Of a stretch of 64,000 nucleotides of DNA, positions 40,976-44,730 are shown in pieces. Numbering within the stretch: position 1 is the stretch's first letter; each line of letters starts with the position of its first letter. This DNA comes from Roseitalea porphyridii (lineage in GTDB: Bacteria > Pseudomonadota > Alphaproteobacteria > Rhizobiales > Rhizobiaceae). A model generated the notes under the pieces. The model saw nothing but the letters and a program-made list of their open reading frames with translations, had not been told where the DNA came from and searched no databases. The stretch covers positions 496,001 through 560,000 of the forward strand of contig NZ_CP036532.1 of the NCBI RefSeq assembly GCF_004331955.1, given 5' to 3'. A program made the translations under genes and the position numbers.

Positions 40976-42103
<1,128 letters not shown>

Positions 42104-42820
42104 TCAGGCGCCGGGCGGATCGGGCCATTCGTCCTTGTCTCCGGGCCGGGTGGGAATGGGCCGTTCGTTCGGATTACCGTGGATGTCGACCGCGTCCCGT
42201 CGCCGCCAGCGGAGGTAGAGCCAGCACAGATTGTCGTAGGCAAGCGGTGAGCGGACGCGGATACCGCCGATCAAATGGCGGCAATCGTCGACCAGATTGC
42301 ACATGATACCGCGAACGCTCCGTTGCAGCATCTGTTCATCGAGGTCGCCTTTGCGGACGCCCAGCGCGATGAACTCGTAGAAGTTCAGCAGCTCGATCAG
42401 CGACCGCGCCGATTCGTGCGGCCGAACAGAATTCGCACCGTTGCGCGTCTGTGAAGCGCCGTACCTTCGGGCGATCCAGTCCTTGTAGAAGACGTCCTGG
42501 TACTCGGGAAAGAAGGCCTCGCGGCGCTCCTTGTGCAAACGGAATTCGGCGGAAAGGCGTGACTGCAGCAGCGTGTTGATTGTGTGCTGGCGGCGCTGCT
42601 GGTCTTCGGCGGCGTTGGCATTGTAGATCAGGGTACAGACGGCAACGATGACGCCGAACGATGCCGCAACGGCCGGCAGGATGCCCGGCGCTATGGTGCC
42701 GAAGAAGGTGGCCCAGTCATCGACCTCCCGCCAAAGCGTCGAGACGACCATGGTGATGATCGCAAGCCCGACCAGAAAAACGGAGGTTATCGTCGAGAGT
42801 AGGCCGGGATGGTTCGGCAT
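42104..42820 (-). CDS. Membrane protein, DUF4760-like
   Basis: A 238-residue protein with two N-terminal membrane helices (ITSVFLVGLAIITMVVSTLW and PGILPAVAASFGVIVAVCTLI), a charged coiled region (AEDQQRRQHTINTLLQSRL) and a cytosolic helical domain with NFYEFIALGVRKGDLDEQML, which resembles DUF4760. Function unknown. No Shine-Dalgarno is seen; the ATG follows directly after a T-run that forms the tail of an intrinsic terminator, and a 27-codon peptide gene ends 12 bases upstream. Expression therefore depends on read-through of that terminator or coupling to the peptide. It converges on the KAS-III gene. Confidence 0.75.
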   Translation of the reverse strand: MPNHPGLLSTITSVFLVGLAIITMVVSTLWREVDDWATFFGTIAPGILPAVAASFGVIVAVCTLIYNANAAEDQQRRQHTINTLLQSRLSAEFRLHKERREAFFPEYQDVFYKDWIARRYGASQTRNGANSVRPHESARSLIELLNFYEFIALGVRKGDLDEQMLQRSVRGIMCNLVDDCRHLIGGIRVRSPLAYDNLCWLYLRWRRRDAVDIHGNPNERPIPTRPGDKDEWPDPPGA

Positions 42821-42821
42821 G

Positions 42822-42852
42822 AAAAAAGGGCCTCAGCCGTTGCCGAAGCCCT
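42822..42852 (-). terminator. Intrinsic terminator overlapping the peptide gene (possible attenuator)
   Basis: On the minus strand AGGGCTTC and GAGGCCCT form an eight-base-pair stem (one G-U pair) with a ten-base loop, followed at once by T6. The 5' arm lies in codons of the last EGFGNG repeat, the stop codon is in the 3' arm, and the T-run ends one base before the next gene's ATG. A second copy of the 5' arm sits in the middle repeat and could pair instead. Confidence 0.7.
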
Positions 42853-42916
42853 CTTTGGCTACACCGTTGCCGAAGCCCTCGCGGAGGACCCCGTTGCCGA
42901 AACCTTCAGCATGCAT
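42833..42916 (-). CDS. 27-residue peptide with three EGFGNG repeats
   Basis: A tiny gene: after MHA come three EGFGNG units separated by VLR and VAK, then TGA. AAAGGAG lies seven bases before the ATG, and a promoter with TAAAAT and TTGATC, 17 bases apart, stands upstream. The three repeat units differ only in synonymous third bases (GAA/GAG, GGT/GGC, GGG/GGT/GGC), which argues for selection on the peptide. One third of the residues are Gly. It ends 12 bases before the membrane-protein gene, with a terminator hairpin overlapping its 3' end. Possible roles: leader peptide of an attenuator, a bioactive peptide, or a small partner of the membrane protein. No family recognised. Confidence 0.72.
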   Translation of the reverse strand: MHAEGFGNGVLREGFGNGVAKEGFGNG

Positions 42917-42945
42917 GGGACAACTCCTTTGCTCTTGACGCTGGC

Positions 42946-42974
42946 ATTTTACCATTTGGCGGCCCGGCGATCAA
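42946..42974 (-). promoter_or_regulatory. Sigma-70-like promoter of the EGFGNG peptide gene
   Basis: On the minus strand TTGATC (-35) and TAAAAT (-10) are separated by 17 bases, with the ribosome site AAAGGAG about 15 bases after the -10 box. This is one of few near-consensus promoters in the window. Confidence 0.6.
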
Positions 42975-43038
42975 CGACGGGCTCATCCGTCAAGACATAA
43001 CCACCCTATACGTGCTCACCCTACGTGACGATTTCAAG

Positions 43039-43068
43039 GTGACGTGGCCCTTCGCGGGGCCACGTCAC
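43039..43068. terminator. Strong 12-base-pair hairpin after the BCCT gene
   Basis: GTGACGTGGCCC / GGGCCACGTCAC with a six-base loop, about 25 bases after the BCCT stop on its transcribed strand. There is no T-run, so it may stop transcription with Rho or protect the 3' end. Confidence 0.5.
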
Positions 43069-43092
43069 TGGTCCGGAAGGCTCCGGGCGGCC

Positions 43093-44730
43093 TCAGTCCC
43101 TGGGCTCGTCCATCAGCCCCTTGACGATGGCAAAGCACGCAAGGAGCAGCACGATGGTGAACGGAAAGCCCGTCGAGACCGCCATCGCCTGAAGCGCGCC
43201 AAGGCCCCCGCCGAGCAGCAGCGCGATCGCCACCAGCCCCTCGAACGTGCACCAGAACACCCGCTGGGGCAGGGGCGCGTCGACCTTGCCGCCGGCGGTG
43301 ATCGTGTCGATCACCAAGGAACCCGAGTCCGACGAGGTCACGAAGAAGACGATCACCAGCACGATCGCCACGAACGAGGTGATCGAGGCCAGCGGGAACT
43401 GCGAGAGCATGACGAACAGCTTGAAGTCCTGCCCGGCCTCGGCGACGCCCTGGAAACCGTCATTGACGATCTGGTGGATGGCGGTGCCGCCGAAGGCCGT
43501 CATCCACAGCACGCAGACCGCCGACGGGATCAAGAGCACGCAGACGATGAACTCGCGCACCGACCGGCCGCGCGAGACGCGGGCGATGAACATGCCCACG
43601 AACGGCGACCAGGAGATCCACCAGGCCCAGTAGAAGGCCGTCCAGCCCTGCCGGAAATTGTCGTCCTCGCGGCCGATCGGGTTCGACAGCGCCGGCAGAT
43701 CGGTGATGTAGGCGCCCAGATTGGCGAAGAAGCCGGTCAGGATGGCGACCGTCGGCCCCACCGCCAGCACGAACAGCAGCAAGAGCAGCGCCAGCATCAT
43801 GTTGATCTCGGACAGCCGCTTGACGCCGGCATCGAGGCCCGCGACGACCGAGACCAGCGCCACCGCCGTGATGCCCAGGATCAGGAACACCTGGAAGCCG
43901 TCGGTGTTGGGCACGCCATAGAGGAACTCGAGGCCCGCGCTCGCCTGCGAGGCGCCGAAGCCGAGCGATGTCGCCAGCCCGAACAGCGTGGCGAACACGG
44001 CGAGCGTGTCGATGATGTGGCCGGTCCAGCCCCAGACCCGGTCGCCGAAGATCGGGTAGAACACCGAGCGGATCGTCAGCGGCAGGCCCTTGTTGTAGGA
44101 AAACAGCGCCAGCGCCAGCGCGACGATCGCGTAGATCGCCCAGGGGTGCAGGCCCCAGTGGAAGATCGTCGCGGCCATGCCGAGCCGCGCCGCCTCGGTC
44201 TCGTCGCCCGCCGCCGCGCCGAGCGGCGCCCAGTCGGTGCGGACCCCTTCCTCGACGGCGGTGCCGCCCAGCGAGGAGGTGAAGTGCGAGATCGGCTCGG
44301 AGACGCCGAAATACATCAGGCCGATGCCCATGCCGGCTGCGAACAGCATCGCGAACCAGCCCATGTAGGAATAGTCCGGCGTCGCGTCGCGGCCGCCAAG
44401 GCGCACCCTGCCCAGCGGCGTGACGATCAGCACCAGGCACAGGATGACGAACACGTTGGCCGCCGACAGGAAGAACCAGTCGAGCTTGGCCGTCAGCCAG
44501 TTGCGCAGCCCGTTGAACAGCGGATCGACCTGGTCCTGGAACGCCAGCGTCAGGATGACGAAGGCGACGACCGTCAGTCCGGAGATCACGAAGACCGGGT
44601 TGTGGATGTCGAGCCCGAACGGGCCGATCTTCGTCTCGATATTGTCCTGGCCGACCTCGTAGTCGGTGTCGATGATGTTCGCCGGCCCCTCGGGCTGCGG
44701 CAAACCGGTAGAGAGTGTCTCGTCGCTCAT
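43093..44730 (-). CDS. BCCT-family betaine/choline/carnitine transporter
   Basis: A 545-residue inner-membrane symporter with 12 helices. The Gly-rich unwound helix is FAAGMGIGLMYFGVSEP, and the aromatic substrate box is in WGLHPWAIYAIVALALALFSY and FYWAWWISWSPFVGMFIARVSRGRSVRE, the most diagnostic BCCT segment. It imports a quaternary-ammonium osmolyte with Na+ or H+. The N terminus (about 35 residues before the first helix) is short, so strong osmosensing as in BetP is not expected. The ATG giving MSDETLSTG is used. The universal stress protein gene lies 49 bases upstream on the same strand and may share its transcript. Confidence 0.93.
   Translation of the reverse strand: MSDETLSTGLPQPEGPANIIDTDYEVGQDNIETKIGPFGLDIHNPVFVISGLTVVAFVILTLAFQDQVDPLFNGLRNWLTAKLDWFFLSAANVFVILCLVLIVTPLGRVRLGGRDATPDYSYMGWFAMLFAAGMGIGLMYFGVSEPISHFTSSLGGTAVEEGVRTDWAPLGAAAGDETEAARLGMAATIFHWGLHPWAIYAIVALALALFSYNKGLPLTIRSVFYPIFGDRVWGWTGHIIDTLAVFATLFGLATSLGFGASQASAGLEFLYGVPNTDGFQVFLILGITAVALVSVVAGLDAGVKRLSEINMMLALLLLLFVLAVGPTVAILTGFFANLGAYITDLPALSNPIGREDDNFRQGWTAFYWAWWISWSPFVGMFIARVSRGRSVREFIVCVLLIPSAVCVLWMTAFGGTAIHQIVNDGFQGVAEAGQDFKLFVMLSQFPLASITSFVAIVLVIVFFVTSSDSGSLVIDTITAGGKVDAPLPQRVFWCTFEGLVAIALLLGGGLGALQAMAVSTGFPFTIVLLLACFAIVKGLMDEPRD

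Follow-up and report, generated by a model that had tools for sequence, protein, structure and literature searches.

Leader peptide-terminator attenuators are known in several forms (trp type, pyrBI, ampC), and type III toxin-antitoxin loci are built as promoter, repeats, terminator and protein gene, with the terminator setting the ratio. Leader peptides that act in trans have been reported from the order studied here, as with peTrpL of Sinorhizobium meliloti. We analysed a 64,000-nt stretch of Roseitalea porphyridii (contig NZ_CP036532.1, positions 496,001 to 560,000; the window), which contains a locus that resembles both arrangements. Its repeat peptide is a member of a widespread and often phage-borne two-gene cassette, in which a tiny gene for a peptide with an [E/D]-G motif is followed, mostly, by a terminator and then by a DUF4760 gene. 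This cassette is apparently undescribed so far: in the open-access literature, we found no paper on such a motif-peptide system, and the one paper retrieved for DUF4760 (PF15956) looks unrelated.

The preliminary description of the locus, made from the letters alone, had named a promoter, a Shine-Dalgarno (SD) sequence, a 27-codon frame of three EGFGNG units and a terminator made of the third unit and the stop codon, followed by the ATG of a membrane protein, and all of these are present (Table 1). Its hairpin and T6 stand as well, whereas the length of eight base pairs does not, since folding gives 15 pairs and -22.4 kcal/mol for the hairpin stretch. This hairpin was missed by a simple terminator scan and found by folding and by the script used for the whole family. 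A single C separates the T6 from the ATG of the DUF4760 gene, and the promoter was the sole sigma-70-like site found in 42000-43200 (shuffles, mean 0.2). The 128-nt leader folds more stably than expected from dinucleotide shuffling (z -2.6), with 3 of 200 shuffled versions equalling it. Rfam returned nothing above its gathering score; BjrC68 and others fell far below, the BjrC68 alignment lying mostly over the terminator.

Table 1. Features of the micropeptide-DUF4760 locus, in window positions
Feature	Position	Strand	Remarks
Sigma-70-like promoter TTGATC-17-TAAAAT	42946..42974	-	-35 at 42974-42969, 17-nt spacer, -10 at 42951-42946
Shine-Dalgarno AAAGGAG of the micropeptide	42924..42930	-	
Micropeptide gene	42833..42916	-	ATG at 42916, 27 codons and TGA at 42835-42833; product MHAEGFGNGVLREGFGNGVAKEGFGNG
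EGFGNG unit 1	42890..42907	-	
EGFGNG unit 2	42863..42880	-	Second copy of the hairpin 5' arm
EGFGNG unit 3	42836..42853	-	Part of the terminator hairpin
Intrinsic-terminator-like hairpin and T6	42822..42856	-	Hairpin 42856-42823, T6 42827-42822; overlaps unit 3 and the stop codon
DUF4760 membrane protein gene, 238 aa	42104..42820	-	PF15956, phrog_2284; codon-like changes start at the first ATG (sister comparison)

The EGFGNG units start at 42907, 42880 and 42853, with a period of 27 nt. They differ in three columns, every one a third codon position, as had been noticed before, and units 2 and 3 are identical over the 17 matched letters. We rejected the idea of a dispersed DNA repeat, given that a degenerate EGFGNG pattern matched only these three units in the 3.54-Mb genome. 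Also discarded was a 40-codon version of the frame, whose ATG overlaps the -10 box and whose first 13 codons diverge from the sister species introduced below. A fusion of the peptide to DUF4760 by stop read-through is excluded, because stop and ATG lie 12 nt apart in the window and 11 nt apart in the sister species, so that the frame is not kept.

Searching 61 relatives with the EGFGNG peptide gave one convincing other genome (G004, E 4.4e-16; the rest at E of at least 0.04), and a scan of the contigs of 84,980 species returned the same one, a Phyllobacteriaceae MAG (JANSXT010000014.1), here called the sister species. There was no further convincing case in 397 genomes of the order, and the peptide was not found in viral contigs. 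In the sister species, the -35 box TTGATC, the SD core, the ATG and frame of the peptide, the hairpin with its T-run and the start of DUF4760 are all kept, although the sequence in between has changed; the -10 box there reads TAAAAG and the SD GAAGGAG, with diverged flanks. This conservation of parts amid diverged spacers places the window feature beyond chance. The two micropeptides share 24 of 27 residues, and their DNA differs at 4 of 81 positions, three of the differences changing amino acids. Of 23 synonymous sites in the peptide gene one had changed, compared with 278 of 1023 for three neighbouring genes (p 0.015), yet 61 of 1161 flanking 27-codon windows showed equally few differences. 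Because peptide and coding DNA are conserved to the same degree, the window and its sister cannot by themselves separate constraint on the peptide from constraint on the RNA. The earlier argument that synonymous differences between the units prove selection on the peptide is thus weak when taken alone, with one synonymous against three amino-acid changes between the species.

The cassette lies between chromosomal genes, with no visible prophage around it, in a slot bounded by a BCCT transporter gene and a KAS-III-like gene. The content of this slot varies within the genus (window 42104-43092; L047, L049, L050). Among five species, two carry the window-type cassette, a third (G001) has a DUF4760 gene whose product is 35% identical and no EG-motif peptide, a fourth is empty and a fifth carries other genes. 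A further strong hairpin, without a T-run, lies past the BCCT stop (window ~43042-43072), with a pair change that is kept in the sister species.

Outside the genus, many DUF4760 genes of Alphaproteobacteria, of Acinetobacter phages and of P2-like phages of E. coli and Citrobacter are preceded by an SD-led frame of 8-29 codons, whose product carries [E/D]-G-x near the C-terminus, as it does in the window. The types comprise EGWGG, EGxRD, EGWDF, DEFDGF and EGMGNG, besides EGFGNG in the window, and only the acidic residue and the glycine are common to all peptides. Profile searches of three overlapping genome samples found DUF4760 in 27 of the 397 drawn from the order, in 13 of the 385 from the class and in 16 of the 398 from the phylum. 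In most cases, the 420 nt upstream of 14 DUF4760 genes held tiny SD-led motif frames, and the peptides read there include MSIREGWGGLG, MALKEGWGGLG, MIKREGWGGLGDRPSA, MIMKIEGWGGLT, MMFREGTRD, MNLGEGARD and MLKEGLRD, among others. The nearest relative of the window DUF4760 outside the genus (L022) has the peptide MRLLVLIEGMGNG, without a recognisable SD, and L084 has a second repeat-bearing peptide, MLKLTEGTGRKGRTGRKEGTGRIHEGTGR, with EGTGR units; repeat expansion thus arose twice with different units, (EGFGNG)x3 in the window and EGTGR in L084. The proposed search for EGFGNG repeats ahead of DUF4760-like genes was therefore rewarded with related motif peptides, the EGFGNG repeat itself being found in only one other species. 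The suggestion of a small peptide with a membrane-protein partner fits the outcome of this motif search, from which the micropeptide gene appears to belong with DUF4760. In the E. coli, Citrobacter and plasmid regions that we opened the micropeptide frames are unannotated, and gene callers appear to miss frames so short. The pattern EGWGGLG matched once in IMG/VR, as MIEGWGGLG on a phage contig (L110 2123-2152), where its stop overlaps the ATG of a portal-like gene; this may be chance.

We evaluated the link between motif and DUF4760 with counts against shuffled or opposite-strand sequence. EG followed by up to six residues, in SD-led frames, occurred in 15 of 31 strong DUF4760 loci, against 0.30 expected and 0 of 31 on the reverse strand, and in none of 25 weak DUF4760 loci. 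Two EG motifs fixed beforehand, themselves read from discovery-set loci, were then looked for in 12 IMG/VR loci that had been retrieved afterwards, and 10 of these carry one or the other in an SD-led ATG frame (reverse strand, 0 of 12), the misses being L114, which has MHLKLDGWGGTS, and L116; at L121 the first of these motifs matches a different frame and the second finds the true one. A wider motif ([DE]G, more residues), set after the viral and P2 peptides had been seen, matched 16 of 31 discovery loci, where shuffling gave 0.34, and 14 of a further 18, three of the 18 being close relatives, where it gave 0.15; the reverse strands of both sets gave no match, and neither did any of the 122 long open frames that these loci contain besides. 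The script left 15 of the 31 discovery loci without the wider motif, L062, L066 and L022 among them, which have motif peptides by eye. Near-copies (L120, L125-L130) and a locus with only 22 nt upstream (L123) were left out of the motif counts.

The type of peptide tracks the DUF4760 tree. On a tree of 42 DUF4760 proteins, from which L100 was left out, peptide types (assigned by hand from hand-picked peptides) need 9 changes, compared with 24.4 when shuffled; none of 200 shuffles went as low. One clade (99/95), of the EGxGNG type, unites the window, its sister and L022; the EGWGG and EGxRD clades (forks 91/82 and 80/72) have a motif peptide in 22 of 22 rows, and the 12 peptide-less rows all fall outside these two. 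Such tracking would also be expected from joint inheritance alone.

A terminator is a frequent, though not universal, part of the cassette. When 33 loci with hand-picked peptides were scored by one script, 21 proved to have a terminator-like hairpin behind the peptide, compared with 2.70 in shuffles, and 12 had none. The search of this script extends into the first codons of the gene, and the hairpins of L082, L095, L111 and L114 may lie inside it; the script also misses the L055 hairpin that was seen when reading the upstream DNA, and at L062, L064 and L066 a strong hairpin is present that no T-run follows. In E. coli and Citrobacter the hairpins vary with pairing kept (AGGCGGAGA...TCTCCGCC and AGGCGGGGA...TCCCCGCC). 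The distance from stop codon to stem ranges from 13 to 54 nt, and only in the window pair do the two overlap, with a value of -24.

Many of these cassettes are borne by phages. The EGWDF type comes from five Acinetobacter phage records; in the one examined, PhabP_R1, the DUF4760 gene adjoins the integrase, and a contig of this type shows peptide, terminator and DUF4760 in that order. The peptides of Citrobacter phage Shae_phiSM and of E. coli read MKKVFDEFDGF, MNKAFDEFDGF or MKKMYDEFDGF. All six of the E. coli and Citrobacter P2-like loci that we opened have DUF4760 between the portal and the replication endonuclease genes, an interval described as the P2 hotspot of anti-phage genes (PMC9122126, PMC9519451); the main text of these papers, as distinct from their supplements, does not name DUF4760. 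Of 5,426 E. coli genomes, 334 have a DNA match to the cassette region, although some of these matches cover no more than the flank (H65-H68), and DUF4760 was present in 34 of 40 matches spread over the ranking.

In some loci the two halves of the cassette are separated or DUF4760 is missing. In one E. coli locus (L135 2600-4530), an IS421 element stands between an intact micropeptide and DUF4760, and in another (L136) DUF4760 is absent and the peptide has lost its ATG. The E. coli plasmid pGPT24-02-C, with phage genes aboard, carries an intact MKKRYDEFDGF frame with SD and terminator in the absence of DUF4760: none is annotated among its 64 features, and tblastn gave only a 47-residue match at E 0.014. 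Six of eight matching plasmid records are at least 99% identical, and a further one of 3.1 kb (L139) was also opened. The phage-plasmid copies are near-identical and thus represent one lineage.

The window protein matches DUF4760 at 99.8 bits (Pfam cut-off 25), and all six DUF4760 proteins scanned match phrog_2284, a family of unknown function. The structure model of the L111 protein is confident and all-helical (pLDDT 88), and that of the window protein less confident (pLDDT 69). Searches of the PDB gave no match under E 1.7 by sequence or E 2.9 by fold, and one unnamed viral model was retrieved by fold at E 8.5e-4. PADLOC offered no convincing anti-phage model for six DUF4760 proteins, four of which had no match and the others E 0.00065 (a weak transmembrane match) and 0.67.

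To account for these observations, we propose, with a probability of roughly one half, that the cassette is a mobile accessory module, often prophage-borne, in which the micropeptide acts on or with DUF4760 and the terminator keeps DUF4760 scarce. The main transcript would be short and would encode a micropeptide with [E/D]-G-x as its working part, present in three copies in the window, and DUF4760 would be made from read-through only, leaving the peptide in excess. The peptide would most likely act in trans, as an antitoxin-like or ligand-like partner of DUF4760, and the module would most likely function in the exclusion of phages or in competition among mobile elements. Because the third repeat and the stop codon form part of the hairpin in the window lineage, a ribosome that completes the peptide is expected to unfold this hairpin and so admit RNA polymerase to DUF4760, which would couple DUF4760 output to peptide translation.

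The chief rival, possible though less likely, is a leader acting in cis, in which the nascent peptide or the progress of the ribosome decides between termination and read-through, and which serves as a sensor of translation or of an inhibitor, the peptide having no role of its own. The leader position of the frame, together with the terminator ahead of the gene in most scored loci, keeps such a reading alive, and folding with a masked ribosome gives it substance in the window. There, the hairpin stays intact with the ribosome at codons 8-16 and is abolished from codon 19 to the stop, in line with the earlier suggestion of an attenuator-like terminator before the membrane gene: in these models, translation of the peptide should disturb a terminator between the promoter and DUF4760. 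The terminator dominates the leader fold: for upstream pairing of unit 3, the highest value is 0.37 in the window, compared with 0.06 in the sister species. That the middle repeat copies the 5' arm of the hairpin proved true, and the alternative pairing claimed for it takes a narrower form. The predicted fold pairs the copy with the linker before it; pairing with the terminator 3' arm appears above all for a modelled ribosome on codons 20-22, and with one on codons 3-7 the copy partly competes for that arm in the window and not in the sister species. Termination in E. coli is reported to fall from ~90% to <10% when a stop codon lies 5 bp ahead of the terminator, an effect abolished without translation (PMC4824070), and the P2 peptides of the present family end 13-15 nt ahead of the stem. 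From this published effect and the modelled folds, DUF4760 output in the window lineage would be expected to rise with peptide translation, while in most relatives the terminator is expected to lie far enough from the peptide to work regardless of translation. It is this variation in the stop-stem distance, from -24 to +54, with 12 of the 33 loci lacking a scored terminator, that speaks against control in cis as the common function. In addition, a repeated motif makes little sense as an arrest site, and intact peptide and terminator persist where DUF4760 is missing. The same three observations, on repeats, distance and solitary peptide genes, favour an action of the peptide in trans.

We consider it improbable that the cassette works through its RNA, as a small RNA or as an RNA antitoxin of tandem repeats like those of type III systems, the frame being secondary. 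Promoter, ~120-nt transcript and terminator do resemble a small RNA gene, 27-nt tandem repeats before a terminator and a protein gene do resemble type III toxin-antitoxin loci, and the scarcity of synonymous change between the window and its sister agrees with an RNA under constraint, subject to the flanking windows that change as little. What recurs across the family, however, is an amino-acid motif in different codons amid unrelated RNA. Glutamate is written GAA or GAG, glycine with all four codons and leucine as CTG, CTT, CTC or TTA, so that no shared DNA element lies behind the motif; a third-position test, partly circular because its rows were chosen for equal amino acids, serves for codon variety only. 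Tandem repeats, moreover, occur in two lineages only, and the Rfam search gave no family above its gathering score.

It is very unlikely that the peptide is a RiPP precursor with FGN units cross-linked as in cyclophane peptides of the GrrA/OscA type, a notion raised by a weak match to NCBIfam TIGR04260, at E 0.003-0.012 and with 16-18 bits where the cut-off requires 31. No gene of the genome scores as a GrrM maturase above the cut-off and none for a maturase was found beside the peptide, whose 27-aa frame lacks a leader region and whose partner is DUF4760. The peptide-maturase-like radical SAM genes lie ~2.7 Mb away next to a small protein of their own, and a second weak peptide match falls opposite a long frame, whose product we take to be DhaL-like. 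That distant locus (L052 11711-15268; C1 ~3,249,700-3,253,270) holds a gene for a small protein rich in Cys and Gly ahead of two radical SAM genes, of which the first has a product matching peptide-maturase models; the cluster is RiPP-like and unrelated to the EGFGNG peptide. Least credible of all, in spite of 9 Gly, 3 Phe and 3 Asn in 27 codons, is an attenuator sensing the supply of glycine, phenylalanine or asparagine, as once suggested: the family shares no residue beyond E/D and G, the frame carries no control codons for a downstream product, which here is DUF4760 and not metabolic, and the terminator is kept for most ribosome positions before unit 3, the partial competition seen for codons 3-7 being limited to the window sequence. 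Moreover, all four residues of the repeat already occur in its first unit, so that, judging from the folds, a ribosome short of one of them would halt before reaching the hairpin, which could then form.

The mobile module acting through its peptide can be drawn more boldly, as a new two-part system of phage competition in which a peptide of 8-29 residues, sometimes with tandem motifs, is the diffusible antitoxin or ligand of a membrane effector, DUF4760. The terminator would then keep the peptide in excess, the orphan peptides of phage-plasmids would be counter-defence, and effector output in the window would report peptide translation. This complete version is speculative, and we regard it as doubtful. 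If the proposal is right, the DUF4760/phrog_2284 family of 'unknown function' gains an unannotated partner gene and the anti-phage site of P2-like prophages in E. coli a new candidate; the window would add a compact overlap of peptide-coding repeat and terminator.

In comparison with known systems, the cassette shares with attenuators (trp type, pyrBI, ampC, and peTrpL of S. meliloti) a short SD-led frame before a terminator and a structural gene. Unlike them, it has no matching biosynthetic gene, its motif is conserved over unrelated leaders and can be repeated, and its terminator is not universal. With type III toxin-antitoxin loci it has the order of parts in common, and in the window a terminator does stand between the repeat RNA and the protein gene. 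The conserved item is, however, a peptide motif, repeats are exceptional, and DUF4760 is a membrane protein predicted to be all-helical, which in the Pfam and PDB searches matched neither a ToxN/AbiQ-like toxin nor any solved fold under E 2.9. The GrrA/OscA cyclophane RiPPs likewise have Gly-rich repeats with aromatic-x-Asn, and differ from the window peptide in their TIGR04260 score, their GrrM maturase and their leader region. Finally, the E. coli members of the cassette occupy the same site as P2 hotspot anti-phage genes such as old and tin (PMC9122126, PMC9519451).
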